64,000 nt of DNA. It comes from Reyranella humidisoli. Its GTDB lineage: Bacteria; Pseudomonadota; Alphaproteobacteria; Reyranellales; Reyranellaceae. Position 1 is the first letter of the stretch; every line of letters starts with the position of its first letter. A model generated the notes under the pieces. That model did no database searches and was not told where the DNA came from. It saw only the letters and a program-made list of their open reading frames with translations. The translations under genes were made by a program, and so were the position numbers. Where the stretch lies: contig NZ_JAHOPB010000001.1 in NCBI RefSeq assembly GCF_019039055.1, positions 3,012,001 to 3,076,000 of the forward strand, read 5' to 3'. Positions 29,245-50,463 of this stretch are shown piece by piece.

Positions 29245-29529
29245 ATGAAAGTGGCTCTGTCTGCCCTTCTGGTCGTCGCTGTCGCTAGCGGCGTCGCCTA
29301 CGCCCAGCCGCAGCGCTTCAATTCCGACTTCAGCACCATGCAGGAGTCCGGTCCGCCGGTCGCCGGCGGCAACGGCACGACGGTCGGTCCGAATTGGAAA
29401 AACCAGGCGACGTCGCCAATGCCCAGCTCCCAGGAAATCAGCGAGCTGCCGCGCTACCCGATCACGGAAGAGCCGATCTGGGTAAAGCCGATGCCGACCC
29501 GAAAACTGCCGCCGCGCGCCCAGCAATAG
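29245..29529 (+). CDS. Small secreted protein, function unknown
   Basis: A 94-residue protein with a signal peptide (MKVALSALLVVAVASGVAYA) and a Pro/Gln-rich, otherwise featureless mature chain of about 74 residues ending KLPPRAQQ. No Cys in the mature part and no recognised domain. The ATG at 29245 has CCCGGAG upstream; ten more codons are open before it but lack a site. It ends three bases before the end of the converging cysteine desulfhydrase gene. Confidence 0.65.
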   Translation: MKVALSALLVVAVASGVAYAQPQRFNSDFSTMQESGPPVAGGNGTTVGPNWKNQATSPMPSSQEISELPRYPITEEPIWVKPMPTRKLPPRAQQ

Positions 29530-29531
29530 GG

Positions 29532-30638: not shown

Positions 30639-30669
30639 GGTCCGCTCGTCCGGTTCCCGGTTCTTTTCG

Positions 30670-31608: not shown

Positions 31609-31689
31609 TTCGATCCTCAACTGTAGTGTCCTGCGCCCGAAGCACATACCGTGCCCGGGGAATCATCTCAAATCGGGTCAGAATCTTCC

Positions 31690-32550: not shown

Positions 32551-32575
32551 GCGGCGTGACGAACAGCAAGGAAGC

Positions 32576-33397: not shown

Positions 33398-33454
33398 CGA
33401 ATCCTCCGGTCGTGATCGTGACAGCGGGGCGGCGGCGAGGCAATCGCTCGGAGA

Positions 33455-33483
33455 TTGACAGCGCTAACCTACGCGACGACTAA
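33455..33483 (+). promoter_or_regulatory. Candidate promoter of the Mla-like operon
   Basis: A consensus TTGACA (33455-33460) lies 17 bases before GACTAA (33478-33483), a poor -10. Transcription would begin at about 33490, only a few bases before the ATG at 33493, and no Shine-Dalgarno sequence precedes that ATG. The mRNA might therefore be leaderless. Confidence 0.5.
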
Positions 33484-33492
33484 TCAAGTCGG

Positions 33493-34617
33493 ATGGCCGA
33501 AGCGGAACCCACAATTCGTTACACGGAGCGCGCGGGCAGGCCCGTCGTCGAGGTCGGCGGGACGTGGACCGTCTTCAGCGTGCGCGGCATCCGTGAAAAA
33601 GCCGGGAAGGCGCTGAAGGCCGCCGGAGCCGTGGAGAAGGGCAAGCGCACCGTCGACGCGACCGGGCTCGAACGGGTGGACACCGCCGGCGCGCTGGAAA
33701 TCCTGGAACTGGCCGGCGGAGAGGCCGAGGTCGAGACCAAGAACGACGAACAGGCTGCGCTCTTCAAGATCGTTCGCGAAAACATGTGCGAGCCCCACCC
33801 CGCTCATAATGTCAACGGGCTGGTGCATTGGCTGGACGAGATCGGCCGCAGCTCGATCGACTTCTACAAGCAGGTCATCAATCTCTGCGCCTTCTTCGGC
33901 GAGATCCTGGTCGTGGTCATCGAGGCTATCCTGCAGCCCAAGCGGTTCCGGCCCAATGCCGTGATCCAGCAGATGTACGAGGTCTGGATCCGGGCTCTGG
34001 TGATCGTGGGCGTGCTCTGCTTCCTGATCGGTGTCGTGATCGCCTACCAGGGCGTCCAGCAGCTCCGCCAATTCGGCGCGGAGACCTTCACCGTCGAGGC
34101 GGTTGGCATCGGCATGTTCCGCGAACTTGGCCCGCTGCTCACCGCCATCATCGTCGCCGGCCGTTCGGGCAGCGCCTTCACCGCCCAGATCGGCACGATG
34201 CAGGTCAACCAGGAGGTCGATGCAATGCGCACCATCGGCCTCAACCCGATCGAATGGCTGGTCCTGCCGCGCATCACCGCGCTGCTGATTTCGATGCCGC
34301 TGCTGGCCTTCTGGGGCGACATGGCGGGACTGCTGGGTGGCGCGGTCGCCTGTACCGTCTATCTCGACTTCACCTTCGTGCAGTTCTTCGACCGGCTGCG
34401 CGACACGGTCGGCGCTTGGCACTTCTATACCGGCATGATCAAGGCGCCAGTGTTCGGCATCGTCATCGCCGTCATCGGCTGCTTCGAGGGTCTGCAGGTG
34501 AGGGGCAGTGCCGAAAGCGTCGGTCAGCTCACGACAAAGGCGGTGGTCGAATCGATCTTCTGCGTGATCGTGCTCGACGCGGTCTTCTCGATCATCTTCC
34601 TGCTCGCGGGCGTGTGA
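33493..34617 (+). CDS. MlaE-family lipid ABC transporter permease with N-terminal STAS domain
   Basis: A 374-residue protein combining a STAS domain (about residues 10-100, with [18 protein letters not shown]) and an MlaE permease (about 120-374). The permease shows the family loop [35 protein letters not shown]. In E. coli the STAS partner MlaB is separate; the fusion is common in alphaproteobacteria. It moves phospholipids between membranes with the ATPase, MCE protein and lipoprotein encoded next. The stop overlaps the ATPase start (TGATG). Confidence 0.92.
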   Translation: [374 protein letters not shown]

Positions 34618-35468
34618 TGGCCGAAGCGGGCCTGGCCAGCACCGAGGATTTGCCGCCGAAAGCGCCTTTGGTCGAGGGCGGGCAGATCAGCGATCATCGC
34701 GACGGGCGAGAAGTCGTGCTGCGCCTGCGCGGGATCCGGACCCAGTTCGGCGACAAGGTGATCCACGACAATCTCGATTTCGACGTATTCCGTGGCGAGA
34801 TTGTAGGCCTTGTCGGCGGTTCCGGCACCGGCAAGTCGGTGCTGCTCCGGACCATCATCGGCTTGAACCGGGCGCGTGAGGGTACGATCGAGATGCTGGG
34901 CGTGGACACCAGTACGCTGCATGGCAAGTCTCAGCGCGAAATGCTGGCCCGCACCGGCGTGCAGTTTCAGGACGGCGCGCTCTTTTCGTCCCTCACCGTC
35001 ACTGAAAACATCATTGTGCCGATCCGCGAGCATGCCGAGCTCGAGGACCAGACTATGCGCGAAATCGCTGCCCTGAAGATTGGCATGGTTGGGCTGCCGG
35101 CAGACACCGGGATGAAGAAGCCTTCGGAACTGTCGGGGGGCATGCGCAAACGTGCCAGCCTGGCGCGGGCGCTGGCGCTCGATCCGGAACTTCTGTTCCT
35201 CGACGAACCCACCGCCGGCCTCGACCCGATCGGCGCGTCGCACTATGACGAGCTCGTGAAAGGCCTGTGCCGCAACCTCGGGCTCACGATCCTGATGGTC
35301 ACGCACGACCTCGACAGCCTCAACGCCATTTGCGACCGGATCGCGGTCCTTCTCGACAAGCGCGTCGTGGTTGGTACCATGGCGGAATTGCTGGAATACG
35401 ATCATCCCTGGGTCCGGGAGTATTTCCACGGACCGCGGGGACGTGCAGCGCGGCAGGAGCATAAGTAA
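34617..35468 (+). CDS. MlaF-family lipid ABC transporter ATPase
   Basis: A 283-residue ATPase. Walker A is GGSGTGKS, the signature LSGGMRKRASLARA and Walker B LLFLDEPTAGLDP, followed by the H-switch MVTHDLDS. The LSGGM-KR form is characteristic of MlaF/Ttg2A. A 35-residue acidic N-terminal extension precedes the ABC domain. Its ATG shares a base with the permease stop. It would power phospholipid (or other lipid) transport across the envelope. Confidence 0.93.
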   Translation: MAEAGLASTEDLPPKAPLVEGGQISDHRDGREVVLRLRGIRTQFGDKVIHDNLDFDVFRGEIVGLVGGSGTGKSVLLRTIIGLNRAREGTIEMLGVDTSTLHGKSQREMLARTGVQFQDGALFSSLTVTENIIVPIREHAELEDQTMREIAALKIGMVGLPADTGMKKPSELSGGMRKRASLARALALDPELLFLDEPTAGLDPIGASHYDELVKGLCRNLGLTILMVTHDLDSLNAICDRIAVLLDKRVVVGTMAELLEYDHPWVREYFHGPRGRAARQEHK

Positions 35469-35474
35469 GCGTCG

Positions 35475-36509
35475 ATGGAAAGAAAATCGCCCTATGTGCT
35501 GATCGGCGCGGCGATGATCCTGTTCGTTGCGGCCGTGGCAGGCTTCGTGATCTGGAAGCTGCGCGCCGGCGATCGCACCTCCTATGCCTATTACGACATT
35601 CTCTTTTCGGGCGACGTGCAGGGTCTGACCAACGATTCGCCGGTGTTCTATCGCGGCCTCCGCGTGGGACGGGTCGCCAACATCCAGCTGACCTCGCGTG
35701 TCGATACCCAGCGCTCGACGGGCCGTGAGCGGCTCACGGAGAAGATCGAGGTCACGGTCGCCGTCGACTGGTCGATCGACATTCGTGACCGGTCCTATGC
35801 GGTGTTCGAAAAGCCGTTCATCGCCGGTGCGCCCTTCATCCAGATCGTCGGCCGCCTCGACGTCGACCAGGTGAAGCCCAAGAAGAAGCTGGGCGACAAG
35901 CCCTATCCCGAGATTCGCGAGGGCGCCTCGTTCCTGCAGGCCACCTCGACCTCGGCGCAGGAACTGCTGACCAAGGCGAGCACGACCGTCGATCGCCTGA
36001 ACGACCTGTTGAGTCCCGACAATATCGGCGCCGTAACCGACTCGCTGAAGAACCTCCAGACGGCGACGAATGCGTTTGCCAAGTCCGATACCGCGATCCA
36101 GGCGACCCTGGCCGAACTGCCGGGCGCCATCGCGGACTTCCGCAAGACGTTCGCCAAGCTGGACAATCTCACCAACTCGTTGACCCTGATCGCCCAGGAA
36201 ATCGGACCGCAGGATGCCGAGACCCGGAAGGCGTTGGCCGGGAAGGACCCGGGCGAGCTTCGCAAGACGCTGAACGAGACAAGGGCGGCGCTGGCCAACA
36301 TCAATTCCGCCGCAGGCCAGCTCAGCAAGCTGGTGACGGACAACAGCCGCCCGATCAAGAACTTCACCGAGACCGGCCTGACCGAATTCTCGCTGGCCCT
36401 CCGGGACCTGCGCCAGCTCACCGCCAACCTCAACGTCATCGCCACACGGTTGGAGCGGGACCCGGCCAATTTCGTGTTCAGCGGCAAGCAGGGATACACG
36501 CCGAAATGA
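35475..36509 (+). CDS. MCE (MlaD-like) domain protein
   Basis: A 344-residue periplasmic protein anchored by one N-terminal helix (about 8-29). The MCE domain (about 38-118: YYDILFSGDVQGLTNDSPVFYRGLRVGRV) forms the hexameric lipid channel in this family, and a long helical C-terminal part (about 150-330, Leu/Ala/Thr-rich) can extend as a tube. Compared with E. coli MlaD (about 180 residues) it is long, nearer to the alphaproteobacterial and PqiB-like forms. It starts six bases after the ATPase stop. Confidence 0.92.
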   Translation: MERKSPYVLIGAAMILFVAAVAGFVIWKLRAGDRTSYAYYDILFSGDVQGLTNDSPVFYRGLRVGRVANIQLTSRVDTQRSTGRERLTEKIEVTVAVDWSIDIRDRSYAVFEKPFIAGAPFIQIVGRLDVDQVKPKKKLGDKPYPEIREGASFLQATSTSAQELLTKASTTVDRLNDLLSPDNIGAVTDSLKNLQTATNAFAKSDTAIQATLAELPGAIADFRKTFAKLDNLTNSLTLIAQEIGPQDAETRKALAGKDPGELRKTLNETRAALANINSAAGQLSKLVTDNSRPIKNFTETGLTEFSLALRDLRQLTANLNVIATRLERDPANFVFSGKQGYTPK

Positions 36510-37243
36510 TCCGTTGCCTGGCCGCCTGCGCTGTCGCCGTCGCGCTCCTGACCGGCTGTTCCTTCGTCAGTGCCGTCGACTCGGCCGGTGAGCCGACCGA
36601 TCTCTATACGATCTCGCCCAAGAGCACCTTCGACGCCGATCTGCCGGCCGTTTACTGGCAGCTCGCGGTCGATGCCCCGGTGGCGGCGGCCAGCCTCAAT
36701 ACCGGCCGCATCGCCATCGCCATGACGCCGACCTCGACGGATTACTACGCCAAGGTGGCGTGGACCGACCGGGCGCCGCTCATGGTGCAGACGCGCATCG
36801 TCGATTCCTTCGAGAACACGCGCAAGATCGTGGCGGTCTCGCGCGAGTCGATCGGCCTGCGTGCCAACTACGTGCTGCAGCCCGACCTGCGCAATTTCGA
36901 GGCGATGTACTTCTACGGCCAGCCGCCGATCGTGAAAGTGCGGATCATCGCCAAGCTGGTGCGCATGCCCGACCGCCAGATCATCGGCGTCGCCTCCTTC
37001 GAGCGCTGCGTGCGGGCGCGTGCCGACAAGGTGCCGAAAGTGGTCGAGGCCTTCGATCAGGCACTGGGCAGCGTCATCAAGCGGCTGGTCTCGTGGACGC
37101 TGAAGACGCCGCCGGCACGCCCGCCGAGCGAGTCGGCGCCTTACGACATCGAGCGCTTTCGCAATCCGGCCAACGCCATCATCGACAGCGAAAATTGCCC
37201 CAGGGGCCAGGACGCCTCGATGGTGCCCTACGCCGACGAGTAG
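36506..37243 (+). CDS. ABC-type transport auxiliary lipoprotein
   Basis: A 245-residue lipoprotein (signal MIRCLAACAVAVALLTGC, lipobox LTGC) of the PqiC / ABC_trans_aux family, beginning with EPTDLYTISPKSTF and continuing ARIAIAMTPTSTDYYAKVAWTDRAP-like blocks. It would sit in the outer membrane and receive the MCE tube. The ATG overlaps the MCE-gene stop (ATGA), so the four genes form one operon. It substitutes for the MlaC/MlaA parts, which are not seen here. Confidence 0.85.
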   Translation: MIRCLAACAVAVALLTGCSFVSAVDSAGEPTDLYTISPKSTFDADLPAVYWQLAVDAPVAAASLNTGRIAIAMTPTSTDYYAKVAWTDRAPLMVQTRIVDSFENTRKIVAVSRESIGLRANYVLQPDLRNFEAMYFYGQPPIVKVRIIAKLVRMPDRQIIGVASFERCVRARADKVPKVVEAFDQALGSVIKRLVSWTLKTPPARPPSESAPYDIERFRNPANAIIDSENCPRGQDASMVPYADE

Positions 37244-37258
37244 GCTGGCGACGCGGCT

Positions 37259-38323
37259 TCAGGCGCGCTTTTCGACCATTTTCCAGGCGAGATCGGCCAT
37301 GGCGCGGGCGCGGTTGCCGTACTTGGTCGCCGTTTCGGACGAGGCATTGCCGTCGAGGCCGCGCTTGTAGACGCCCTGCACGATGGCGGCGAGGCGGAAC
37401 AGGGAGAAGGCCAGGTAGAAGTCCCAGGCCGGCACTTCCGTGCGGCCGGTGCGGCGGGCATAGGCCGCCAGGTATTCCCGCTCGGTGGGGATGCCGAATT
37501 CCCGCAGATCCTTGCCGGCATAGCCGCCCGAGGCGCCGAAACCCTCGCCGAAATGGTACATCATGCAGTTGTAACCGAGGTCGGCCAGCGGATGGCCGAG
37601 CGTCGACAGTTCCCAGTCGAGCACGGCGATGACGCGCGGCTCGGTCGGATGCACGATCGTGTTGCCGAGGCGATAGTCGCCGTGATTGATGCGCGTCTCA
37701 TCGCCCGGCGGGATATTCTCCGGCAGCCACTTCTTCAGGGCTTCCATCGATTCGATGTCCTCGGTGCGGGCGAGGTCGTACTGGCTGGACCAGCGCGCGA
37801 GCTGACGCTGGATGTACTGGCCCTCGCGGCCATAGTCGCCGAGGCCGACAGCGCGGTAGTCGACATTGTGCAGGCGGGCCAGCACGTCGTTCATCGAATC
37901 GAAGATCTTGCCGCGGTCGGCCGGCGAGATTCCCGGCATTTTCACGTCGGCGAGAACGCGGCCGGGCAGGAACTGCATGATGTAGAAGGTGGTGCCGATG
38001 ACCGAATCGTCCTGGCAGAGCGCATAGGGCTTGGGCACCGGCACGTCGGTATGGTCGGCCAGCGCCTTGATCACGCGATACTCGCGATCGACCTGGTGGG
38101 CCGAGGGCAGCAGCTTGCCCGGCGGCTTCTTGCGCAGGACGTACATGTTCCCACCGCCGTCGGTGACGTGGAAGGTCGGATTGCTCTGCCCACCCTCGAA
38201 CTGAAGCACGCTGATCGGGCCGCGAAAGCCCTCGACATTGGCCTTCATGTAGTCGGTGAGCCGGGCCTCGTCGAAGACGTGGGCCTGGCGGACGGGCGTG
38301 AGATTGTCGGGCAGATTGGACAT
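37259..38323 (-). CDS. Phosphotransferase family protein (APH, ACAD10/11 N-domain-like)
   Basis: A 354-residue kinase-fold protein of the aminoglycoside phosphotransferase family. The nucleotide part has FEGGQSNPTFHV and YVLRKKPPGKLLPSAHQVDREY; the catalytic loop is HGDYRLGNTIVH and the metal site VLDWELSTLGHPLADL. In animals this domain is fused to an acyl-CoA dehydrogenase (ACAD10/11) and phosphorylates 4-hydroxyacyl-CoA; bacterial free-standing forms near acyl-CoA genes probably do the same. It lies downstream of an acyl-CoA ligase, consistent with that view. It is not expected to confer drug resistance. Confidence 0.85.
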   Translation of the reverse strand: MSNLPDNLTPVRQAHVFDEARLTDYMKANVEGFRGPISVLQFEGGQSNPTFHVTDGGGNMYVLRKKPPGKLLPSAHQVDREYRVIKALADHTDVPVPKPYALCQDDSVIGTTFYIMQFLPGRVLADVKMPGISPADRGKIFDSMNDVLARLHNVDYRAVGLGDYGREGQYIQRQLARWSSQYDLARTEDIESMEALKKWLPENIPPGDETRINHGDYRLGNTIVHPTEPRVIAVLDWELSTLGHPLADLGYNCMMYHFGEGFGASGGYAGKDLREFGIPTEREYLAAYARRTGRTEVPAWDFYLAFSLFRLAAIVQGVYKRGLDGNASSETATKYGNRARAMADLAWKMVEKRA

Positions 38324-38401
38324 GGGATTGTTCTAGAACCGTGGCTGGGGGAATTCGAGACGCGTTTGCGAGGGGATCCGCAGGGCGGTCAATGACGCCG
38401 A

Positions 38402-39961
38402 TCAGTTGATGTTGCGCTCCAGGCCTTCCCAATAGGGCTTGCGCAGCTCGCGCTTCAGCAGCTTGCCGGTCGGATTGCGCGGCAGGACATCGATGAAATC
38501 GACCGACTTTGGCAGCTTGTAGCCGGCGATGCGTTCGCGAGCCCATCCGATAAGGTCGCCGGCCGTGACCTCGGAGCCTGTCTTGCGCACGACGACGGCC
38601 TTCACGGCCTCGCCCCAGCGCTCGTCGGGCACGCCGATCACCGCCACGTCGGAAACCGCGGGATGACCGAACAGCGCGCTCTCGACCTCGGCCGGATAGA
38701 TGTTCTCGCCGCCCGAGACGATCATGTCCTTCACCCGGTCGTAGATGAAGAGATAGCCTTTCTCGTCGAGATAACCTGCGTCGCCGCTCAAGAACCAGTC
38801 GACGCGAATCGCACGCTTCGTGGCGTCGGGGAGGCGCCAGTAGCCGCGCATGACCTGCGGCGAGCGGATGGCGATCTCGCCGACCTGGCCGGTGGGCATG
38901 TCGGCGCCGGTCTCGTCGACGATGCGCAACTCTACTCCGACCTGCGCATAGCCGCAGGACAGCAGCTTCTTGGGGTCGGACGGGTCGTGATCCTCGGGCG
39001 GAAGGAGGGTGATGGCGCCGGTCGTCTCGGTGAGTCCGTAGACCTGCTGGAAGCCGCAGCCGAAGGTCGCCATCGCCTGTTTCAGCAGCTCGGCGGGGAT
39101 CGGCGCGGCACCGTAGACGATGAGGCGCAGGCTCGACAGGTCCGTCTCGCGGATCTGCGGCGCCTGCACCAGAAACAGGATCATCGCCGGAACCAGCAGC
39201 ATGACTTCGATGCGGTCCCGTTCGATGATTTCCAGCACGCGCGCCGGCACGAACTCGCGCACCACATGGTTGGTCGCGCCTGCAAAAAGACCGGCGATGG
39301 CCCAGCCGGCCCCGCCGATGTGGAACATGGGCAGGCAGACGATGTTCTGCGTACCAGGTTTCATGAGCCAGCTTTCCGTCCATTGCTCGAACATGAAGGC
39401 GAAGTTGGCGTTGGTAAGCTCGGCGCCCTTCGGCAGGCCCGTGGTGCCGCTGGTGTAGAACTGGACGGCAGTGTCCTCCAGTCGGGCGGGCACACGAGGG
39501 TCGATGTCGGGATGCCGGTCGCGCCACTCGGCGAAGGCTTCCCAGGCGCCGTGACGAGGACCCAGGGTCACGATCCTGCGGACGCTCTTGAGCTGGTCGC
39601 GAATCTTCTCGACCACCGGGAAATATTCCTCGCCGACGAACAGGATTTCGGCCTCGGCGTCGTTCACGATCTGCAAGACCTCGGGCGGCGCCAGCCGCCA
39701 GTTCACCGAGACCATCACCGCGCCGGCCTTGGCGACGCCGAACAGCAGCTCGAAATAGACGTCGCTGCTCTTGTCGAGATGGGCGACGCGAGCCTGCGGC
39801 CTGACGCCTTCGGCGATCAGTCCCGAGGCGATCCGGCTGGAGGCTCGGTCGAGGGCGCCGTAGCTGGTCCGCCGGCCTTCATAGACGATCGCCACCGTGT
39901 CCGGGTGCGACGCGCCGTGGGCGCGCACGATGTCGGCCAGGCCCACCATCTCAATACTCAT
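38402..39961 (-). CDS. AMP-dependent acyl-CoA ligase
   Basis: A 519-residue adenylate-forming ligase (medium/long-chain or aromatic acid type). It shows YTSGTTGLPKGAELT, the YGAAPIP and VYGLTETTGA motifs, DWFLSGDAGYLDEKGY and VKDMIVSGGENIYP, and a final PTGKLLKRELR containing the catalytic lysine. The start MSIEMVGLAD at 39961 has GGGGGAAG about eight bases upstream; 27 more codons are open but lack a site. It is probably the first gene of a two-gene unit with the phosphotransferase 78 bases away. Confidence 0.9.
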   Translation of the reverse strand: MSIEMVGLADIVRAHGASHPDTVAIVYEGRRTSYGALDRASSRIASGLIAEGVRPQARVAHLDKSSDVYFELLFGVAKAGAVMVSVNWRLAPPEVLQIVNDAEAEILFVGEEYFPVVEKIRDQLKSVRRIVTLGPRHGAWEAFAEWRDRHPDIDPRVPARLEDTAVQFYTSGTTGLPKGAELTNANFAFMFEQWTESWLMKPGTQNIVCLPMFHIGGAGWAIAGLFAGATNHVVREFVPARVLEIIERDRIEVMLLVPAMILFLVQAPQIRETDLSSLRLIVYGAAPIPAELLKQAMATFGCGFQQVYGLTETTGAITLLPPEDHDPSDPKKLLSCGYAQVGVELRIVDETGADMPTGQVGEIAIRSPQVMRGYWRLPDATKRAIRVDWFLSGDAGYLDEKGYLFIYDRVKDMIVSGGENIYPAEVESALFGHPAVSDVAVIGVPDERWGEAVKAVVVRKTGSEVTAGDLIGWARERIAGYKLPKSVDFIDVLPRNPTGKLLKRELRKPYWEGLERNIN

Positions 39962-40094
39962 ACGACGCTTCCCCCTGCCAAACGCCCGTCCGTCGTTGCA
40001 GCCGGGCAGTATCATCCTTCGGCGGTTTTGAAGTGAATTCAAGAGCTTGATCGCCTAGTGTCGGCCGCGAAACACGGCGATTGCACGAGGCACC

Positions 40095-41066
<972 letters not shown>

Positions 41067-41072
41067 CCGCCG

Positions 41073-41174
41073 CTTCCCCATTCAGATGAGGAAGTGCCCT
41101 CGTCTTACGAGGGCGATGGGGTCATGACCCCTCCGTCGCATGAAATGCGGCACCTCCCCATTTGAATGGGGAGG
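41073..41174. repeat. Composite palindromic repeat, family D
   Basis: A dense cluster of stem-loops: GCCCTCGT with ACGAGGGC (41096-41113), GGGGTCATGACCCC (41118-41131), GTCGCAT with ATGCGGC-type pairing (41135-41151) and CTCCCCATTTGAATGGGGAG (41154-41172). The outer left CTTCCCCATTC resembles the inverse of the outer right arm, so the whole may fold as one branched cruciform. It lies between two convergent sugar-nucleotide genes. Confidence 0.75.
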
Positions 41175-41197
41175 CAACTGATCGAAGCCCAAATGCG

Positions 41198-41227
41198 AAG
41201 CGCCGCGAAGTTTCCCTCGCGGCGCTT
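41198..41227. terminator. Hairpin at the end of the GME-like gene, possible terminator
   Basis: AAGCGCCGCGA (41198-41208) pairs perfectly with TCGCGGCGCTT (41217-41227). There is no run of T after it in either direction (only CGCATTT on the minus strand), so termination efficiency is doubtful. Confidence 0.5.
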
Positions 41228-41251
41228 GAAGATACTTGCAGGACGCGTGCC

Positions 41252-42277
41252 TTACTGGGCGGCGAGGGCCTGTTTCGGCAACGCGTTGACGACCGAGACC
41301 TTGCCCGAGGTCATCTCGTCGTAGATCCACTTGTAGGTCTTCTCCATGCCGTCCTCGAGACGGATGGACGGGGCCCAGTTCATCAGCTTCTTGATCAGCG
41401 TGTTGTCGCTGTTGCGACCGCGCACGCCCTTCGGAGCGTCGAGCTTGTAGCTGCGCTTCAGCTTGATGCCGGCGATCTTCTCGACCATGTCGACCAGCGT
41501 GTTGATGCTGACCAGCTCGTCGCTGCCGATGTTCAGCGGCTCGATGATGTCGCTGTCGGCGAGCTTGATCGTGCCCTGCGTGCAGTCGTCGATATACATG
41601 AACGAGCGGGTCTGCTCGCCGTCGCCCCAGATCTCGATCTCGTGCTTGCCCGACAGCTTGGCGGCGATGACCTTGCGGCACATCGCGGCCGGGGCCTTCT
41701 CGCGGCCGCCGTCATAGGTGCCTTCCGGCCCGTAGACGTTGTGGTAGCGCGCCACGCGGGTCGCGATGCCGAAATCCTCGCGAAAGTGGCGGGCCATGCG
41801 CTCGCTGAACAGCTTCTCCCAGCCGTAGCCGTCTTCCGGCAGCGCGGGGTAGGCGTCTTCTTCCTTCAGCGCCGTGACGTTGGCGTCGGTCTGCTTGTCG
41901 CCGTTGTAGACGCAGGCCGATGAAGAATAGAAGAAGCGCGGCACGCCGGCTTCCTTGGCGGCGACCAGCATATGGGTGCTGGTAAGCACCGACAGCATGC
42001 ACTCGGCCTTGTGGGTCTCGATGAAGCCCATGCCGCCCATGTCGGCGGCGAGGTTGTAGATCATCGCGGCGTCCTTGGCGGCCTTGCGGCAGGGCTCGAG
42101 CAGGGCGAGGTCGCCCACCTGATTCTCGACGCCCGGAGTCTTCTGGTACCACTCGTCGAGCGGCTTCACATCGACCGCACGGATCTTGGTGTGGCCCCGC
42201 TGCTGCAGGACCTTGACCAGATGGCCGCCGATGAAGCCACCGGCGCCGGTGACGACGACGAGATCACTCTTGGACAT
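41252..42277 (-). CDS. gme: GDP-mannose 3,5-epimerase-like NAD-dependent epimerase
   Basis: A 341-residue extended SDR closely resembling plant GDP-mannose 3,5-epimerase, the enzyme that makes GDP-L-galactose. NAD motif TGAGGFIGGH (10-19). At a constant offset of 23 from the Arabidopsis numbering I recall, every catalytic residue is present: S120, C122, Y151, K155 and K194, within SSSACVY, DGYGWEK and GGREKAPAAM. Diagnostic plant-like strings AADMGGMGF, ARYHNVYGP, IWGDGEQTRSFMYIDD and GVRGRNSDNTLI are all present. Bacterial members are scattered and little studied; the product here may be GDP-L-galactose, GDP-L-gulose or a related L-sugar. Confidence 0.83.
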   Translation of the reverse strand: MSKSDLVVVTGAGGFIGGHLVKVLQQRGHTKIRAVDVKPLDEWYQKTPGVENQVGDLALLEPCRKAAKDAAMIYNLAADMGGMGFIETHKAECMLSVLTSTHMLVAAKEAGVPRFFYSSSACVYNGDKQTDANVTALKEEDAYPALPEDGYGWEKLFSERMARHFREDFGIATRVARYHNVYGPEGTYDGGREKAPAAMCRKVIAAKLSGKHEIEIWGDGEQTRSFMYIDDCTQGTIKLADSDIIEPLNIGSDELVSINTLVDMVEKIAGIKLKRSYKLDAPKGVRGRNSDNTLIKKLMNWAPSIRLEDGMEKTYKWIYDEMTSGKVSVVNALPKQALAAQ

Positions 42278-42585
42278 GAACGAAAGCCTTTCGAATCGAA
42301 GCGAGGGGTTTTATCCGACTTATCAACGACTTGGCGAGTCTGGCGCCGCGCCTCGGTCGAGCACGCGATCGGGGGCCCGGAAGGGAAACGGGCCGCGCGA
42401 GGAAGTCCGTTTGATCGGAAGTACCCGCCTCGTCAAGCCGCCGCCGTGCCGCATGCCTTGTGCATGATCTTGCGGTAGAGAGGCGTCGCTGAATCTCCAG
42501 GGCCGGTGAAAAAGATGGTCCCACCCGAAAATTGATCTATACCAACAACATAGGCGTAATTTTTCGCGATGCCCGACCTTTTTGC
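42278..42585. other. Intergenic region before the carbamoyltransferase gene
   Basis: A 308-base divergent spacer with no intact gene. The stretch 42433-42531 reads on the minus strand as 32 residues of coding-like sequence (FSGGTIFFTGPGD, then SATPLYRKIMHKACG and Ala residues before TGA) with no start on its right. It could be the tail of a decayed gene. The right 55 bases are AT-rich and hold a candidate promoter. Confidence 0.45.
42532..42560 (+). promoter_or_regulatory. Candidate promoter of the carbamoyltransferase gene
   Basis: TTGATC (42532-42537) and CGTAAT (42555-42560) are separated by exactly 17 bases, each matching sigma-70 consensus at four of six positions. Transcription would start near 42567, leaving a leader of about 19 bases with no clear Shine-Dalgarno sequence before the ATG at 42586. 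Confidence 0.5.
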
Positions 42586-44340
42586 ATGACCTATATCCTC
42601 GGCCTCAACGCCTATCATGCCGACGCGGCTGCCTGCCTGGTAAAGGACGGCGAACTGGTCGCGGCGGTTGAAGAAGAGCGGTTTCGCCGGATCAAGCACT
42701 GGGGCGGTTTCCCCAGCGAATCGATCCGCTACTGCCTCCGCGAGGCCGGCATAGCGCTGGCCGAGGTCGATCATGTGGCGATCAACAGTGACAACGCCGC
42801 CAACCGCTGGCGCAAGCTCGCCTATGCGCTGACCTCGGGTGTCAGCCTGAACTATGTTTTGAGCCGGCTGCGCAATCGCGGCGAACGGGCCGACGTCGCC
42901 GGCAACCTGAAGCAGCACCTGCCGGAGCAGGAGTTCCGCGGGACGGCCCACACGGTCGAGCACCATCTCTGCCATCTGGCCTCGGCCTTCCTGGTCTCGC
43001 CCTACGACAAGGCCGTCGCGGTCTCGGTCGACGGGTTCGGCGACTTTTCCTCGGCGGCCTGGGGGCTGGGCGAGGGTGGCAATCTCGCGGTCGACGGCCG
43101 GGTCTACTTCCCGCACTCGCTGGGCGTCTTCTACGAGGCGATGACCCAGTTCATCGGCTTCCCGCACTATGGCGACGAGTACAAGGTCATGGGCCTCGCG
43201 CCCTACGGCCAGCCGACCTATGTCGACCAGATGAAGGAAATCGTCCGTCTCAAGAATGACGGTACCTTCGCCCTCGACCTGCGCTACTTCCGCCACGCGT
43301 CCGGCGAGGGCGCGAATTACCAGGTGACGGACGGCATTCCCTCGGGTGGCCGCCTGTGGAGCGACGAACTCGTGAAGCTCCTGGGGCCTGCACGCGATCC
43401 GGCGGCGCCCCTCGAGGACAAGCACCGCGACATCGCACGCTCGGCCCAGGTTACCTACGAGAACGCCTTTTTCCACCTGCTGAATACGCTGCATGCGCGT
43501 TACCGAGCCGATGCTGTCGTCCTGGCGGGCGGCTGTGCCTACAATTCGGTGGCCAACGGCAAGGTGCTGGAGCGCACGCCGTTCAAGAAGCTCTACGTCC
43601 AGTCGGCCGGCGGCGACGCCGGCGGCGCCATCGGCGCGGCCTTCGCCACCTGGCACAAGACGGAGGGCGCAACAGCGAAGCGCCACTTCGTGATGGACCA
43701 TTCCTACTGGGGTCCGTCGGCGACGCCGGACGAGATCGCGGCCGCCATCGACCAGCGCCGCGCCGACTTCGAGGCGGCAGGGTGCCGCATCGAGCGCATC
43801 GCCGACGAGGCGACGCTGTGCCGGCATACGGCGCAGGCGATCTCCGAGGGCAAGGTGATCGGCTGGTTCCAGGGCCGTATGGAATGGGGGCCGCGCGCGC
43901 TCGGCAACCGCTCCATCCTGGGCGATCCTCGCCGCGCCGACATGAAGGACATCCTCAACCTCAAGATCAAGCGGCGGGAATCCTTCCGGCCGTTCGCGCC
44001 CTCGATCCTGCGCGAGGCCGTCCCCGAGTGGTTCGAGACCGACGACGACGTGCCGTTCATGATGCAGGTCTTCCGCATCCGCGAGGAAAAGCGGGCCGAA
44101 ATCCCGGCCGTCACCCATGTCGACGGCACCGGCCGCCTGCAGACCGTCACCTGGTCGGGCAACCCGCGCTATGCGCGCCTGATCTCGGCGTTCCGCGACC
44201 TCACCGGCGTGCCGATCGTGCTCAATACCAGCTTCAACGAAAACGAACCGGTGGTCTGCAAGCCGGAGGAGGCGATCGACTGCTTCCTGCGCACCAGGAT
44301 GGACGTCCTCGTGCTTGGCGACACGCTCATCCAGCGCTGA
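42586..44340 (+). CDS. NodU/CmcH-family O-carbamoyltransferase
   Basis: A 584-residue carbamoyltransferase that would transfer a carbamoyl group from carbamoyl phosphate (via carbamoyl-AMP) to a hydroxyl group. The N-terminal Kae1-like domain starts MTYILGLNAYHADAAACL and has the metal site EHHLCHLASAF and SVDGFGDFSS; AGGCAYNSVANGK and the YrdC-like C-terminal domain follow (WFQGRMEWGPRALGNRSILG, LNTSFNENEPVV). Homologues modify Nod factors, cephamycins, GlcNAc residues or O-antigens. Flanking nucleotide-sugar genes argue for a carbamoylated surface or secreted glycan; the acceptor is unknown. Confidence 0.9.
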   Translation: MTYILGLNAYHADAAACLVKDGELVAAVEEERFRRIKHWGGFPSESIRYCLREAGIALAEVDHVAINSDNAANRWRKLAYALTSGVSLNYVLSRLRNRGERADVAGNLKQHLPEQEFRGTAHTVEHHLCHLASAFLVSPYDKAVAVSVDGFGDFSSAAWGLGEGGNLAVDGRVYFPHSLGVFYEAMTQFIGFPHYGDEYKVMGLAPYGQPTYVDQMKEIVRLKNDGTFALDLRYFRHASGEGANYQVTDGIPSGGRLWSDELVKLLGPARDPAAPLEDKHRDIARSAQVTYENAFFHLLNTLHARYRADAVVLAGGCAYNSVANGKVLERTPFKKLYVQSAGGDAGGAIGAAFATWHKTEGATAKRHFVMDHSYWGPSATPDEIAAAIDQRRADFEAAGCRIERIADEATLCRHTAQAISEGKVIGWFQGRMEWGPRALGNRSILGDPRRADMKDILNLKIKRRESFRPFAPSILREAVPEWFETDDDVPFMMQVFRIREEKRAEIPAVTHVDGTGRLQTVTWSGNPRYARLISAFRDLTGVPIVLNTSFNENEPVVCKPEEAIDCFLRTRMDVLVLGDTLIQR

Positions 44341-44430
44341 TCGGCTGGCGCAGCAGGACCGGTTCCGGCAATTGAGCTATCCTGCCTGCAAGGCATTCGC
44401 CAGCAAGGCATTCGAGTGGGGGACGGCATA

Positions 44431-45426
44431 GTGCGTGTTTTGGTGGCGGGGGGCGCGGGCTATATCGGCTCGCATACGTGCAAGGCGCTTGCGCGCGCCG
44501 GCCACCTGCCGATCGTCTACGACAATCTCCACACCGGCCATCCCTGGGCGGTGAAATGGGGGCCGCTGTTCCAGGGCGACATCAACGACCCCGTGGCACT
44601 GGGTGCGGCGATCCGTGAGCACCGGCCCGATGCGGTCATCAATTTCGCCGCGCTGGCCTATGTCGGAGAGTCGATGGCCGAGCCGACGCGCTATTACCGG
44701 GCCAACGTCGCGGGCATGATCACGCTCGTCGAGGTGATGCGGGCCCACGGCATCGGCTCGATCGTCTTCTCGAGCAGTTGCGCCACCTATGGCATCCCGG
44801 AGCGCCTGCCGGTCGTCGAGGGCATGTGCCAGCGGCCGATAAATCCCTACGGTCGGACCAAACTGATGGGTGAGGAGATCCTGCGCGATGCCTGTGCCGC
44901 CCACGGGCTGGGCGCCATTTCGCTTCGCTACTTCAACGCGGGCGGCGCCGATCCGGAGGGCGAACTGGGCGAGGAGCACGATCCCGAGACGCATCTCATC
45001 CCGTTGGTGTTGCAGGCGGCGCACGGAACGCGGGCGAGCATTTCCGTATTCGGTACCGACTACGACACGCACGATGGCACCTGCGTGCGAGACTACGTGC
45101 ATGTGACCGACCTCGCGGCGGCTCACGTATCGGCGCTCATGCGATGCAAGCCGGGCACGTACCAGGCCTACAATCTCGGTGCCGGCTATGGCGCCAGCAT
45201 CGGCGAGATCATCGCGCGAGCCCGTGTCGTCACGGGCCGAAATATCCGAACCGTCGAGGCCCCCCGGCGTCCTGGTGATCCGCCCGTCCTGGTGGCCGAC
45301 GTATCGGCGGCACGGAAAGCACTCGACTGGTCGCCGGCCCATTCGTCCATCGACGACATCATCCGCAGCGCCTGGACCTGGATGACGGAAAGCCGGTCGG
45401 GCGCGATGCAGGCCAAGGCCCGCTGA
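44431..45426 (+). CDS. galE: UDP-glucose 4-epimerase (GalE-like)
   Basis: A 331-residue extended SDR. NAD motif GGAGYIGSHTCKAL, the FAALAYVGESM loop and SSSCATYG precede NPYGRTK (Y-x3-K), followed by RYFNAGGADPEGELGE, CVRDYVHVTDLA and the tail LDWSPAHSSIDDI. All match bacterial GalE, which interconverts UDP-glucose and UDP-galactose. The initiator is taken as GTG at 44431 because GGGGGA precedes it; another GTG at 44416 is possible. It is 10 bases upstream of the glycosyltransferase gene. Confidence 0.92.
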   Translation: MRVLVAGGAGYIGSHTCKALARAGHLPIVYDNLHTGHPWAVKWGPLFQGDINDPVALGAAIREHRPDAVINFAALAYVGESMAEPTRYYRANVAGMITLVEVMRAHGIGSIVFSSSCATYGIPERLPVVEGMCQRPINPYGRTKLMGEEILRDACAAHGLGAISLRYFNAGGADPEGELGEEHDPETHLIPLVLQAAHGTRASISVFGTDYDTHDGTCVRDYVHVTDLAAAHVSALMRCKPGTYQAYNLGAGYGASIGEIIARARVVTGRNIRTVEAPRRPGDPPVLVADVSAARKALDWSPAHSSIDDIIRSAWTWMTESRSGAMQAKAR

Positions 45427-45436
45427 GCGACGCCCC

Positions 45437-46231
45437 ATGGACCGCGATCTCGTCACGCCGCTGCTGATCACCTTCAACGAGATCGCGAACATCGAGCGGA
45501 CGCTGGCGAAGCTCGATTGGGCCCGGCGCATCGTCGTGATCGACAGCGGCAGTACTGACGGTACGCTCGACGTGCTGGCGAAGGATCCGCGCATCGAGGT
45601 GATCCATCGGCCGTTCGACAGCTTCGCGGAGCAGTGCAATTTTGGCCTCGCGCAAATCCGCACGGACTGGGTCCTGTCGCTCGACGCGGATTATGAGTTG
45701 AGCGATGGCTTCGTCCCGGAACTGGAGAGCCTGCAGCCGGCAGCCGAGGATGTCGGCTACAGGGCAGCCTTCGTCTACCGCATCCATGGCCATGCGCTCC
45801 GTGGCACGCTCTACCCGCCGCGCGCCGTGCTCTACCGCGTCGCGGGTGCGCGCTACGAGAACGAGGGGCACGGGCATCGTATCCGCCTGCAGGGGAGGGT
45901 CTCGAACCTCAGGAGTGCGATCTATCACGACGACCGCAAGCCGCTGTCGCGCTGGCTGGGTTCGCAGCTCAAATACGCCGCGCGCGAGGCCGTCCACCTT
46001 CTCGAGACGCCGCGCGAGCGGCTGGGGCGCGTCGACAGGATACGCCTGATGGGATGGCCCGCGCCGATCCTGGTGCTGGGCTACGTGTTGTTCGCCAAAG
46101 GTGCCGTGCTCGACGGCAAGGCGGGCTGGTTCTACGCCTTCCAGCGGCTGCTGGCGGAGGTGTTGCTGGCGCTGGAACTGCTGGACCGGCGTCTGTCGGC
46201 CGCTCAGGGTTTCAGCAGGCCCGGCCAGTAG
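45437..46231 (+). CDS. Glycosyltransferase family 2 protein (WaaE/KdtX-like)
   Basis: A 264-residue GT2 inverting glycosyltransferase. The N-terminal PLLITFNEIANIERTLAKLDWA and VVIDSGSTDGTLDVL bind the nucleotide, SLDADYEL holds the metal-binding D-x-D, and the RLQGRVSNLRSAIYHDD segment fits the acceptor part of LPS-core beta-1,4-glucosyltransferase-like enzymes. A C-terminal hydrophobic stretch (about 200-255) suggests membrane association. It follows galE closely. Its last 28 bases overlap the converging PLP protein gene. Confidence 0.88.
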   Translation: MDRDLVTPLLITFNEIANIERTLAKLDWARRIVVIDSGSTDGTLDVLAKDPRIEVIHRPFDSFAEQCNFGLAQIRTDWVLSLDADYELSDGFVPELESLQPAAEDVGYRAAFVYRIHGHALRGTLYPPRAVLYRVAGARYENEGHGHRIRLQGRVSNLRSAIYHDDRKPLSRWLGSQLKYAAREAVHLLETPRERLGRVDRIRLMGWPAPILVLGYVLFAKGAVLDGKAGWFYAFQRLLAEVLLALELLDRRLSAAQGFSRPGQ

Positions 46232-46995
46232 TGACCGTCCGGCGTCGGCCGCTTGCCGAAGATCGCCTGGCCGACGCGCACGACGTTCGATCCTTCCTCG
46301 ATCGCTTCCTCGAAGTCGCCCGACATGCCCATCGACAGTTCGGTCAGGCAAGGGTTGAGCTTGATCGCCTCGTCGCGCAGGCGGCGTAGCAAGTCGAAAC
46401 AGGGCCGCACCTTCTCCATGTCGGCATTGAGCAGGGCCAGGGTCATCAGGCCCCGCGGCTTCAGGCGCGAGTATCGTCCGAGTGTCTCGATGAAGGACGG
46501 CAGGTCGTCGGGATGCAGGCCGTACTTGGTGTCTTCGTCCGACGTATTGACCTGGATGTAAACGTCGAGGACGCGGTCCTCGATCTCCAGCCGCTTGTCG
46601 AGGAGTTCGGCCAGCTTCGCGCTGTCGAGCGCGTGGAACTCGCGGGCGAAGCGCGCCAGATACTTTGCCTTGTTGCTCTGCAGATGGCCGACGATGCACC
46701 AATCGATGGGGAGGTCCTGCAACGCGTCGCGCTTGCCCATCGCCTCCTGGATCTTGTTCTCGCCGAACGGATGGACGCCGGCGGCATGGGCGAGGCGCAA
46801 TATGTGCGCTGGCACGGTCTTGGTGATGGGCAGCAGCCGCACCGACGACCTGTCGCGCCCGGCCCGCGCGCAGGCGGCGGCGATACGCGCCTCCACGGCG
46901 GCCAGATTGACCCGGAAGGCGGCCTGCGGATCGGGACCGAAGCGTTCGGTATCTTCGGGAGAGAGCGTCAGGAGCGGGTCAATGTGGGAGGTCAT
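46204..46995 (-). CDS. YggS/PROSC pyridoxal phosphate homeostasis protein
   Basis: A 263-residue single-domain PLP-binding TIM barrel. The PLP lysine is in LLPITKTVPAHILR and the phosphate-binding GMSGDFEEAIEEGSNVVRVG; FGENKIQEAM and WCIVGHLQSNK are the family hallmark. The start MTSHIDPLL is preferred over an in-frame ATG 16 codons upstream because the latter adds a residue string unlike the family. It buffers free PLP and affects amino-acid pools. Its 3' end overlaps the glycosyltransferase gene by 28 bases. Confidence 0.92.
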   Translation of the reverse strand: MTSHIDPLLTLSPEDTERFGPDPQAAFRVNLAAVEARIAAACARAGRDRSSVRLLPITKTVPAHILRLAHAAGVHPFGENKIQEAMGKRDALQDLPIDWCIVGHLQSNKAKYLARFAREFHALDSAKLAELLDKRLEIEDRVLDVYIQVNTSDEDTKYGLHPDDLPSFIETLGRYSRLKPRGLMTLALLNADMEKVRPCFDLLRRLRDEAIKLNPCLTELSMGMSGDFEEAIEEGSNVVRVGQAIFGKRPTPDGHYWPGLLKP

Positions 46996-47053
46996 GCAGC
47001 ACGGCCCTGTCGCTGGAAGTGCGGGAGAAGGCCGGCGCGCCACCGCCCGGGAA

Positions 47054-47128
<75 letters not shown>

Positions 47129-47155
47129 GCCGGACCTTGCGGCGGGACGTTTACC

Positions 47156-47920
47156 TCAAACCGCCGGCCGTTGTCGCGCCCACTCGTAAGCCGCGACGGC
47201 GGCGGCATTGGAGACGTTGAGGGCGGACAGGGCGTTGCTGGTGGGAATTGTCACCAGCCGGTCGCATTTCTCCGCGGTCAGCCGCCGCAGCCCTTCGCCT
47301 TCCGCGCCGAGCACGATGCAGGTGCGGCCCTTGAGGTCGAGGTCGCCGATCTTCGTGTCACCGCTCTCGGCCAGCCCGTAAGTCCAGAAGTCGGCTTCCT
47401 TGAGCTGGTCCAGGGTGCGGGCAAGGTTGACGGCGCGCACCAGCGGCACGACTTCGAGGGCCCCGGAGGCGGACTTGGCCAGGGTGCCGGTATCGGAAGG
47501 GGTGTGGCGGTCTGTCACGATCACCCCGGCGGCGCCGAAGGCCGCGGCGGAGCGCAGGATGGCGCCGACATTGTGCGGGTCGCTGACCTGGTCGAGCGCC
47601 AGGACCAGGGCATTGTCGCCGCAGCGGCCCAGTATGTCTTCGATACCGGGCTCTTCCAAGGGTGCCACGAGGGCGGCGATGCCCTGGTGGACGGAGCCGT
47701 TGGGCAGCCGCTGGTTGAGATCCTCGCGCGACGTGATGGTCATGTCCGTCTTGCCGATCTCCGCGGCATGGTTATCGGCCATTTCCTTCGTGGCGAAGAC
47801 GCGCTCGATGCGGCGGTCGGGATTGGCGAGGGCCGCGAGCACGGCGTGACGGCCGAAAATCCAGATGGATTGGTTACCGGTGCGGGACTGGCGGTGGGGG
47901 CGGTTGGGGCGAGGGCGCAT
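47156..47920 (-). CDS. rlmB: 23S rRNA (guanosine2251-2'-O)-methyltransferase RlmB-like (SpoU/TrmH)
   Basis: A 254-residue SPOUT methyltransferase. An N-terminal substrate-binding domain begins at WIFGRHAVLAALANP, and the catalytic domain shows SPOUT motif 1 PHNVGAILRSAAAFGA, motif 2 VLGAEGEGLRRL and motif 3 ALNVSNAAAVAAYEW. This is the RlmB/TrmH pattern for ribose methylation of 23S G2251; a TrmH tRNA target cannot be fully excluded. A basic N-terminal tail (RPRPNRPHRQSR) precedes the fold. The start at 47920 has AAGG upstream. Confidence 0.9.
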   Translation of the reverse strand: MRPRPNRPHRQSRTGNQSIWIFGRHAVLAALANPDRRIERVFATKEMADNHAAEIGKTDMTITSREDLNQRLPNGSVHQGIAALVAPLEEPGIEDILGRCGDNALVLALDQVSDPHNVGAILRSAAAFGAAGVIVTDRHTPSDTGTLAKSASGALEVVPLVRAVNLARTLDQLKEADFWTYGLAESGDTKIGDLDLKGRTCIVLGAEGEGLRRLTAEKCDRLVTIPTSNALSALNVSNAAAVAAYEWARQRPAV

Positions 47921-48068
47921 GGCGAGCCTTGTATGGCGCTGAGCCCCTGTGGGCAATGCTGCGGCCGCGCTGCTACCCCGGCGGTGGGGTGCGGCACAGC
48001 CGGCAGCCGGACTGCGCGGGTTTTGCGGGTGCCGGGACCTTCTGTTCCATTGGCTTTTAAGGAAGTGC

Positions 48069-48097
48069 TTGCAGCCGACCGGGCGGCACTGTATCTC
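48069..48097 (+). promoter_or_regulatory. Candidate promoter for tRNA-Tyr/tRNA-Gly/tuf
   Basis: TTGCAG (48069-48074) and TATCTC (48092-48097) are 17 bases apart, and transcription would begin near 48104, about 34 bases before the mature tRNA-Tyr. No other promoter-like pair is visible before tuf, so the tRNAs and tuf are probably one transcript. Confidence 0.55.
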
Positions 48098-48137
48098 CGC
48101 GCCCCTACAGGCTTTTTCGTTCTATGCCCGTTGGGAC

Positions 48138-48224
48138 GGAGGGGTGGCCGAGCGGTCAATGGCAGCAGACTGTAAATCTGCCGACTTCGCGTCTACGAAG
48201 GTTCGAATCCTTCCCCCTCCACCA
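48138..48224 (+). tRNA. tRNA-Tyr (GTA)
   Basis: The acceptor stem GGAGGGG pairs with CCCCTCC, the CCA is encoded, and the anticodon loop CTGTAAA gives GTA (Tyr). The long variable arm is that of a class II tRNA, as expected for bacterial tRNA-Tyr. It is the first of two tRNAs before tuf. Confidence 0.96.
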
Positions 48225-48261
48225 TCGGACCATTGCGCGGGATTGGCTGTAATCGGGCGTT

Positions 48262-48335
48262 GCGGGTGTAGCTCAATGGTAGAGCAGAAGCCTTCCAAGC
48301 TTACGACGAGGGTTCGATTCCCTTCACCCGCTCCA
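48262..48335 (+). tRNA. tRNA-Gly (TCC)
   Basis: The acceptor stem GCGGGTG pairs with CACCCGC, with discriminator T and an encoded CCA. The anticodon loop CTTCCAA gives TCC (Gly). It lies 37 bases after tRNA-Tyr and 64 bases before tuf, the conserved tRNA-tuf arrangement. Confidence 0.96.
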
Positions 48336-48399
48336 GGATTGGCCTCGTCGGCCAGTTAGTTCGGTCTGTGTCTGAAAGAATCACGAGGGTCGTGACACC

Positions 48400-49590
<1,191 letters not shown>

Positions 49591-49637
49591 TGCTATAGAG
49601 GATCGCCGCCGGCACCAAACGGCGGTGATTTGACTGC

Positions 49638-49713
49638 AGGAGTGTAGCTCAGTTGGTAGAGCATCGGTCTCCAAAACCGAGGGTCGTGGGTTCGAGTCCC
49701 TCCGCTCCTGCCA
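49638..49713 (+). tRNA. tRNA-Trp (CCA)
   Basis: The acceptor stem AGGAGTG pairs with CGCTCCT (one T-G pair), with discriminator G and encoded CCA. The anticodon loop CTCCAAA gives CCA (Trp). Its position between tuf and secE is conserved in many Proteobacteria and supports correct identification of the following small gene. Confidence 0.97.
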
Positions 49714-49733
49714 TTATTTGAAGAACGGCGATC

Positions 49734-49925
49734 ATGACAAAGAATCCGCTCGAGTTCGTCCGTGAAGTCAGGGCCGAGGTGGCGAGAGTCACCTGGCCGA
49801 CTCGGCGTGAAACCATGATCACCACCAGCATGGTGTTCATCTTCGTCGTCATCGCGGCGCTGTTTTTCCTCGTGGCCGACAAGGTCATTGGCTTCGTCGT
49901 GAAGCTTCTGCTCGGAGTTTCCTGA
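49734..49925 (+). CDS. secE: Preprotein translocase subunit SecE
   Basis: A 63-residue single-span SecE, the short alphaproteobacterial form. The conserved amphipathic helix FVREVRAEVARVTWPTRRE precedes one membrane helix (about 29-57). It clamps SecY in the inner-membrane secretion channel. It lies 20 bases after tRNA-Trp and ends one base before the nusG start. Confidence 0.96.
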   Translation: MTKNPLEFVREVRAEVARVTWPTRRETMITTSMVFIFVVIAALFFLVADKVIGFVVKLLLGVS

Positions 49926-49926
49926 C

Positions 49927-50463
49927 ATGGCTCATCGCTGGTACGTCGTTCACGCCTACTCGGGCTTCGAGAACAAGGTTGCCCAGTCGATCCGCGAGCA
50001 GGCCGGCAAGAAGGGCCTCGACGACGAGATCACCGAGGTCATCGTGCCGACCGAAGAGGTTGTCGAGATTCGCCGCGGGGCCAAGGTCAACACCGAGCGC
50101 AAGTTCTTCCCGGGCTATGTGCTCGTGAAGATGGATCTCACCGACGACTCCTGGCACCTGGTCAAGAACACGGCCAAGGTCACGGGCTTCCTGGGCGGTG
50201 GCGGACGCGGCAAGCCGGTGCCGATCTCTGATGCCGAGGCCAACCGCATCCTGAAGCAGGTCCAGGAGGGCGTGGAACGGCCCAAGCCGGCCGTCAGCTT
50301 CGAGATCGGCGAGCAGGTGAAGGTGGCCGACGGCCCGTTTGCCTCTTTCAACGGCACCGTCGAGGATGTGGACGAGGAACGGGCACGTCTGAAGGTCGCC
50401 GTGTCGATCTTCGGTCGGTCGACCCCTGTCGAACTCGACTACGCGCAGGTGGAAAAGATCTGA
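49927..50463 (+). CDS. nusG: Transcription termination/antitermination factor NusG
   Basis: A 178-residue NusG. The NGN domain begins WYVVHAYSGFENKVAQSI and includes the FPGYVLVKMDLTDDSWHLV strand; the KOW domain (about 125-178: ADGPFASFNGTVEDVDEERARLKV) binds NusE or Rho. It is cotranslated with secE and followed by a terminator, so secE-nusG can be a separate unit from rplKA. Confidence 0.98.
   Translation: MAHRWYVVHAYSGFENKVAQSIREQAGKKGLDDEITEVIVPTEEVVEIRRGAKVNTERKFFPGYVLVKMDLTDDSWHLVKNTAKVTGFLGGGGRGKPVPISDAEANRILKQVQEGVERPKPAVSFEIGEQVKVADGPFASFNGTVEDVDEERARLKVAVSIFGRSTPVELDYAQVEKI

Follow-up and report, generated by a model that had tools for sequence, protein, structure and literature searches.

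Gene content of the locus

The window, a 64,000-nucleotide stretch of the Reyranella humidisoli genome (contig NZ_JAHOPB010000001.1, positions 3,012,001 to 3,076,000), contains a group of sugar genes, one of which very probably encodes a GDP-mannose 3,5-epimerase (GME) (Table 1). The stretch AAAGG lies 9 bases before the ATG of the GME frame. Because a composition-based gene caller retained this frame and dropped every other long frame across the same interval, the overlapping frames have the appearance of the shadow frames that arise in high-GC DNA. A promoter scan over positions 41000-42700 returned no match, a result that carries little weight.

Table 1. Sugar genes around the GME gene, in window coordinates
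Predicted product	Position	Strand	Features
GDP-mannose 3,5-epimerase (GME)	41252..42277	minus	341 codons/aa, ATG start; GAGGFIG NAD loop; S120/C122/Y151/K155/N180/K194/R224/R288
UDP-glucuronate decarboxylase (UDP-xylose synthase, UXS)	40095..41066	plus	convergent with GME; PDB matches
O-carbamoyltransferase (Carbam_trans_N and _C)	42586..44340	plus	divergent from GME; Pfam PF02543, PF16861; PDB matches
GalE, UDP-glucose 4-epimerase	44416..45426	plus	TIGR01179, 405 bits (cut-off 262)
Family 2 glycosyltransferase	45437..46231	plus	PF00535, 1.3e-15

The UXS protein matched PDB entries 4gll, 2b69, 4m55 and 4lk3 at 385-388 bits, with the next molecule at 132 bits. The carbamoyltransferase, for which an alternative upstream start is possible at 42532, matched 7xb6, TobZ, GdmN and others at 4e-80 or better. 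Just past the sugar genes, positions 47054-50463 hold tRNA-Thr, tRNA-Tyr, tRNA-Gly, a tuf-like gene, tRNA-Trp and a nusG-like gene. Positions 33493-37243 are occupied by an operon for Mla-type lipid transport (permease, ATPase, MCE protein and lipoprotein). In 18 loci, that of the window among them, this operon clusters with the same genes. Gene names in these two flanking regions were assigned by eye.

Sequence, fold and phylogeny of the epimerase

A preliminary description of this DNA had proposed a bacterial GME homologue in which five catalytic residues of the plant enzyme recur at a constant offset. All five were recovered: S143, C145, Y174, K178 and K217 of Arabidopsis GME correspond to S120, C122, Y151, K155 and K194 of the window protein, with an offset of 23 throughout. 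Three more diagnostic residues were matched, the conserved Asn (Arabidopsis N203), the diphosphate Arg (R243) and the Arg beside the Cys (R306) corresponding to N180, R224 and R288, respectively. The residue map adds a shift of two between the PDB chain index and the Arabidopsis numbering, chosen because all eight published residues then fall into place. The NAD loop, which in GMEs reads GxxGxxG or GxxGxxA, is GAGGFIG at residues 11-17, and the catalytic S/Y/K triad is formed by S120, Y151 and K155. The acid-base pair C122 and K194 (C145 and K217 in Arabidopsis) is kept in 130 aligned GME rows.

GME has been described as using Cys as the acid, Lys as the base and Arg as their partner, and fucose synthase as using Cys, His and Lys, with GalE lacking the extra acid and base (PMC8787198). 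The window protein carries the residues by which GME has been told apart from both of these enzymes in the literature. An alignment of 133 rows, thinned by leaving out all but two of the rows at least 89% identical to the window protein, had the same eight diagnostic letters in 128. In two of the five exceptions, both of them GME rows, T replaces the first S. The other three were non-GME rows, namely, the window UXS and the window GalE, both without the Cys, and the genome's own fucose synthase, which has His/Lys where the window GME has Lys/Arg.

The best phmmer matches in the PDB were plant GMEs: 8sg0 (4.7e-93, 315 bits), followed by 2c59, 2c54, 2c5a and 2c5e (9e-92 to 6.2e-91, 308-311 bits). 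The next molecule was GDP-L-fucose synthase 7ll6 (2.7e-27, 99 bits). Identity to the plant GMEs was 46-48% over the aligned stretch. A structure predicted from 44 aligned sequences (pLDDT 84, pTM 0.86) was used for a fold search of the PDB, in which the first 14 matches by E-value were GMEs (3.4e-36 to 2.9e-32) and the next had 2.0e-24. TM-scores alone do not discriminate, with TMq values of 0.80-0.86 for GMEs and 0.70-0.82 for the other listed epimerases.

For phylogeny, 152 tblastn pieces (at least 40% identity and at least 290 columns) were reduced to distinct sequences, giving an alignment of 129 rows with the plant and outgroup sequences added. In a 95-row tree, from which all but five of the rows at least 89% identical to the window protein were left out, 92 GME rows stood apart from three outgroups (one UXS, one GalE and one fucose synthase) with support of 99/99, and the window GME fell within a nine-row Reyranella-type group at 100/99. 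Because very long outgroup branches, at the length limit, meet at the former split, the separation of GMEs from the outgroups rests on residues and scores too. The preliminary description had named placement in a UDP-sugar epimerase clade as evidence against its proposal; the protein instead grouped with GMEs and not with UXS, GalE or fucose synthase.

Family models could be taken to suggest another extended SDR, either a UDP-sugar 4-epimerase or a GDP-4-keto-6-deoxymannose epimerase/reductase (GDP-fucose synthase). The Pfam matches of the protein were general SDR domains, and its NCBIfam matches, all 20 of them far below their cut-offs, were led by GDP-fucose synthase (NF047922, 112 bits against a cut-off of 500). 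However, the 20 NCBIfam matches include no model of GME, which leaves a GME nothing to score against; the Pfam matches included no curated GME model either. The cut-off of NF047922 proves little on its own, since the genome's own fucose synthase also misses it (235 bits). The UDP-glucose 4-epimerase model TIGR01179 gave 80 bits against a cut-off of 262, and the Cys/Lys pair is present. In place of the His base and Lys partner of a fucose synthase, the protein has Lys194 and Arg288, and the genome encodes a separate fucose synthase, with His/Lys, beside gmd. An SDR of another kind is very improbable, and identity as a UDP-sugar epimerase or fucose synthase was rejected from the residues, the scores and the tree.

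By these sequence comparisons, chance resemblance to GME is excluded. Homology, the full residue set, the fold match, the tree placement and a GDP-mannose-making enzyme in the genome support the reading of the gene product as a self-sufficient GDP-mannose 3,5-epimerase with GDP-mannose as substrate, which we consider highly probable. We infer the activity and product ratio of the protein from its sequence. Judged by the tests made, it is a typical GME and an ordinary further member of a known family.

Relatives of the epimerase and their distribution

By 2011, plant GME already had 43 close homologues in bacteria by one published count (PMC3220709), and a cyanophage with an annotated GME has been reported (PMC9602691). 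The GME of Methylacidiphilum fumariolicum (MfGM35E, UniProt I0K0X9), 50.5% identical to the Arabidopsis enzyme, was purified and assayed in 2019 (PMC6678494). The earlier remark that bacterial members are little studied is therefore right in part: our literature search found one purified and assayed bacterial GME, but with that report and a 2022 review (PMC8787198) the novelty of the window gene is smaller than had been implied. Among the Reyranella papers listed as matches, none was on surface sugars or GME by its title. The window gene adds a confident, genus-wide example to the bacterial GME family and may provide another enzyme for rare-sugar synthesis.

MfGM35E has Arg281 as its partner residue, and glycosyltransferase and phosphatidylglycerolphosphate synthase genes lie near its gene (PMC6678494). 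Four loci that we retrieved (L222-L225) are presumed to be from Methylacidiphilum. Their proteins have Arg at position 281 and are 49.7-50.6% identical to Arabidopsis GME, and the fetched stretches have 40-41% GC. L224, the one of the four checked, has a GT4 gene directly beside GME and a CDP-alcohol transferase gene nearby, as in the MfGM35E report. Two further loci, L221 and L226, also encode Arg281 but have 48 and 53% GC. The presumed Methylacidiphilum GMEs are 50-52% identical to plant GMEs, and the window GME is about 51% identical to those of L222-L225.

A FastTree of 130 GME rows without outgroups, thinned like the 133-row set and drawn rooted on plants, contained a 118-row branch (support, 0.995) that unites the large group of the window GME with the presumed Methylacidiphilum proteins; ten further bacterial rows lay outside. 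If the naming of L222-L225 is right, assayed enzymes stand on two sides of the window branch point, which favours the same activity in the window protein. Its path to Arabidopsis is 2.61, compared with 2.04-2.09 for the presumed Methylacidiphilum proteins. Given this longer path and the lower identity to plants, a shifted product ratio is possible.

The window protein resembles MfGM35E in its bacterial source, GxxGxxG loop and Cys/Lys/Arg set and differs from it in belonging to a separate bacterial branch and in its gene neighbours. It shares the fold and the eight diagnostic residues with the plant GMEs (Arabidopsis 2c54, 2c59, 2c5a and 2c5e; Myrciaria dubia 8sg0), whereas the loop of the Arabidopsis and Myrciaria dubia enzymes is GxxGxxA, and published accounts place the plant enzyme in ascorbate and cell wall synthesis. 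GDP-L-fucose synthase (GMER) belongs to the same superfamily and has the Cys acid but, unlike GME, requires a prior 4,6-dehydratase.

We next consider how widely the gene is distributed. A GME match at 1e-60 was found in 57 of 61 genomes of the genus, some of them partial and the window's own genome included. With 57 genomes keeping the gene and gene order largely stable in the loci read, a strain-specific capsule gene was discarded as an explanation. The nearest loci to the window GME have record titles that name Reyranella. At 1e-80, GME was present in 27 of 385 sampled genomes of the class, five of these in the family of the window. It was also found in 66 of 188 sampled genomes of the class of Chthoniobacter. 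A scan of species genomes gave at least 588 relatives, and the best 80, which were kept, include records titled Acidobacteriota, Verrucomicrobiota, Planctomycetota and Chloroflexota.

Several genomes hold more than one copy. A second, distant GME (50-53% identical to the window protein) occurs in three genomes of the class (G246, G306 and G428), and loci L150, L151 and L152 represent such a distant group, whose genomes carry an enzyme of the window type as well; the two types may have different uses. Within the genus-level search, genomes G014 and G039 each have two near-full copies, and a partial second copy (G022:C1:1956722-1957162) covers residues 2-148 with 95% identity. In Enhydrobacter aerosaccus ATCC 27094 (L053), GME is 91% identical to that of the window, and the gene order is much as in Reyranella.

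Proposed reaction and glycan sink

If the mechanism follows that of the plant enzyme, tightly bound NAD+ with Y151/K155 would oxidize GDP-mannose at C4, and C122 and K194 would exchange protons at C5 and C3. R288 would lower the pKa of C122, and S120/Y151 would stabilize the enolate. Reduction of the C4 ketone would then yield GDP-L-galactose for the most part, along with the by-products GDP-L-gulose and GDP-D-altrose. GME has been reported to give L-galactose as its main product and both L-gulose and D-altrose on the side (PMC8787198). The L-galactose or L-gulose of the preliminary description are thus both among the known products, but that list was too narrow, and because known enzymes give all three sugars, we add D-altrose. 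Reyranella aquatilis KCTC 52223 and R. soli NBRC 108950 (loci L040 and L050) are named strains in which these three sugars could be sought in the envelope.

That GDP-mannose is the substrate gains support from the gene context: a GMP/PMI, which makes this sugar nucleotide, is encoded in the genome, and four related loci have GMP/PMI right after GME. The genomic GMP/PMI matched TIGR01479 at 549.9 bits (cut-off, 372.95), and its gene lies about 158 kb from GME, near glycosyltransferase and polysaccharide export genes. The four loci (L161, L061, L062 and L063) have, on one strand and in this order, genes for an initiating sugar transferase, a GT4, GME and GMP/PMI; the members of L161 were checked by Pfam (GMP/PMI also by NCBIfam), and those of L061-L063 were assigned by clustering at 40% identity. 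In the 63 loci outside the first Reyranella set with GME called (L061-L117 and L161-L178, of which L172 belongs to the genus of the window and some may represent one genome twice), GMP/PMI was within four genes of GME in 6.

With UXS, GalE, a carbamoyltransferase and a glycosyltransferase encoded by the neighbours, a surface glycan, LPS or exopolysaccharide, is the likeliest sink. A glycosyltransferase encoded nearby or elsewhere in the genome would put the product into a surface polymer, possibly with xylose, galactose and a carbamoyl group. Members of four recurrent glycosyltransferase clusters (two WecG-type and two GT4, typed by Pfam on representatives) were directly adjacent to GME in 28 of the 63 loci, as opposed to 3 of the 193 genes that lay at least six places from GME, a control biased by the choice of clusters for their recurrence near GME. 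The GT4 partner of the relatives had no close match in the genome of the window (best, 8e-6).

Three other readings concern the product and its destination. The protein could be a GME relative tuned to one epimerization, yielding chiefly GDP-L-gulose (C5 only) or GDP-D-altrose (C3 only), both already side products of known GMEs. A C5-only route has been proposed for BlmG of bleomycin (UniProt Q9FB21), described as a bacterial GME relative that would make NDP-L-gulose (PMC6678494, PMC8787198). The bleomycin sugar unit pairs L-gulose with 3-O-carbamoyl-mannose, and a carbamoyltransferase gene lies next door to the window GME. BlmG differs in its antibiotic cluster and in its reported 42% identity to Arabidopsis GME. 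The window protein, however, keeps the residues with a known part in both epimerizations. The Trp between Y151 and K155, unlike in plants, also occurs in the presumed Methylacidiphilum proteins, and Trp153 was therefore dismissed as a specificity change of the window's branch. We judge a single epimerization unlikely, though it is the strongest of the three.

The product might instead enter a small secreted compound, an antibiotic or glycolipid. GME activity has been described in the A201A pathway, a GME relative has been proposed for bleomycin (PMC6678494), and carbamoyltransferases occur in antibiotic clusters, with TobZ, GdmN and the novobiocin enzyme among the PDB matches. However, positions 28000-48000 contain no open reading frame above 609 codons and so no synthetase of NRPS/PKS size, the gene is kept across most of the genus, and relatives often lie beside WecG-type or GT4 glycosyltransferase genes, some beside an initiating sugar transferase gene. 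These points favour a surface polymer and leave a small compound rather improbable. A part in vitamin C synthesis, as in plants, would use the same enzyme chemistry, but the model of the plant-type galactonolactone dehydrogenase, the only plant step searched, reached at best 41 bits in the genome against a cut-off of 458. On this one missing enzyme, vitamin C was rejected as a likely role, and we give it next to no credence.

To return to the surface glycan, GME and the carbamoyltransferase recur together in the Reyranella-type loci. GME was called in 21 of 23 such loci (L038-L060, among the best 80 of at least 588 relatives). UXS adjoined it on the opposite strand in 15 of the 21, and the carbamoyltransferase lay within four genes, also on the opposite strand, in 17. 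Among the remaining four, the L052 and L054 sequences stop roughly 1 kb upstream of GME, the 10 kb of upstream DNA in L048 contain GalE in its place, and L059 has a GT4 beside GME and no carbamoyltransferase. Of the two loci without a called GME, L049, too short for the gene caller, has the carbamoyltransferase, and L057, where GME was missed by the caller, has none by tblastn.

Across the class, a close carbamoyltransferase (at least 58% identity, one a fragment) was found in 15 of 385 genomes, 7 with GME and 8 without. In the seven with both, four of which belong to the family of the window and are not independent, the genes were no more than 10 kb apart in five, 20 kb apart in another and on different contigs in the last. 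Since 8 of the 15 genomes have no GME, both enzymes need not act on the same residue, and the carbamoyltransferase may or may not act on a GME-derived sugar. It is doubtful, and a little less probable than a small secreted product, that the two act on one glycan, an LPS or exopolysaccharide with a carbamoylated sugar unit containing L-gulose or L-galactose, as a surface counterpart of the bleomycin disaccharide.

In genomes without a GME match, the carbamoyltransferase gene has a gene of HldE type nearby (L166) or genes of both HldE and GmhA type (L168), types whose domains were checked on members of L099. The genome of the window also has an HldE-type kinase. A putative carbamoyltransferase and a carbamoylated heptose of the LPS core have been reported in Pseudomonas (PMC8005017), and by analogy these neighbours hint that the carbamoyltransferase may act on the LPS core. 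In L099 itself, genes of GmhA type (SIS) and HldE type (PfkB plus cytidylyltransferase) come after GME on its strand.
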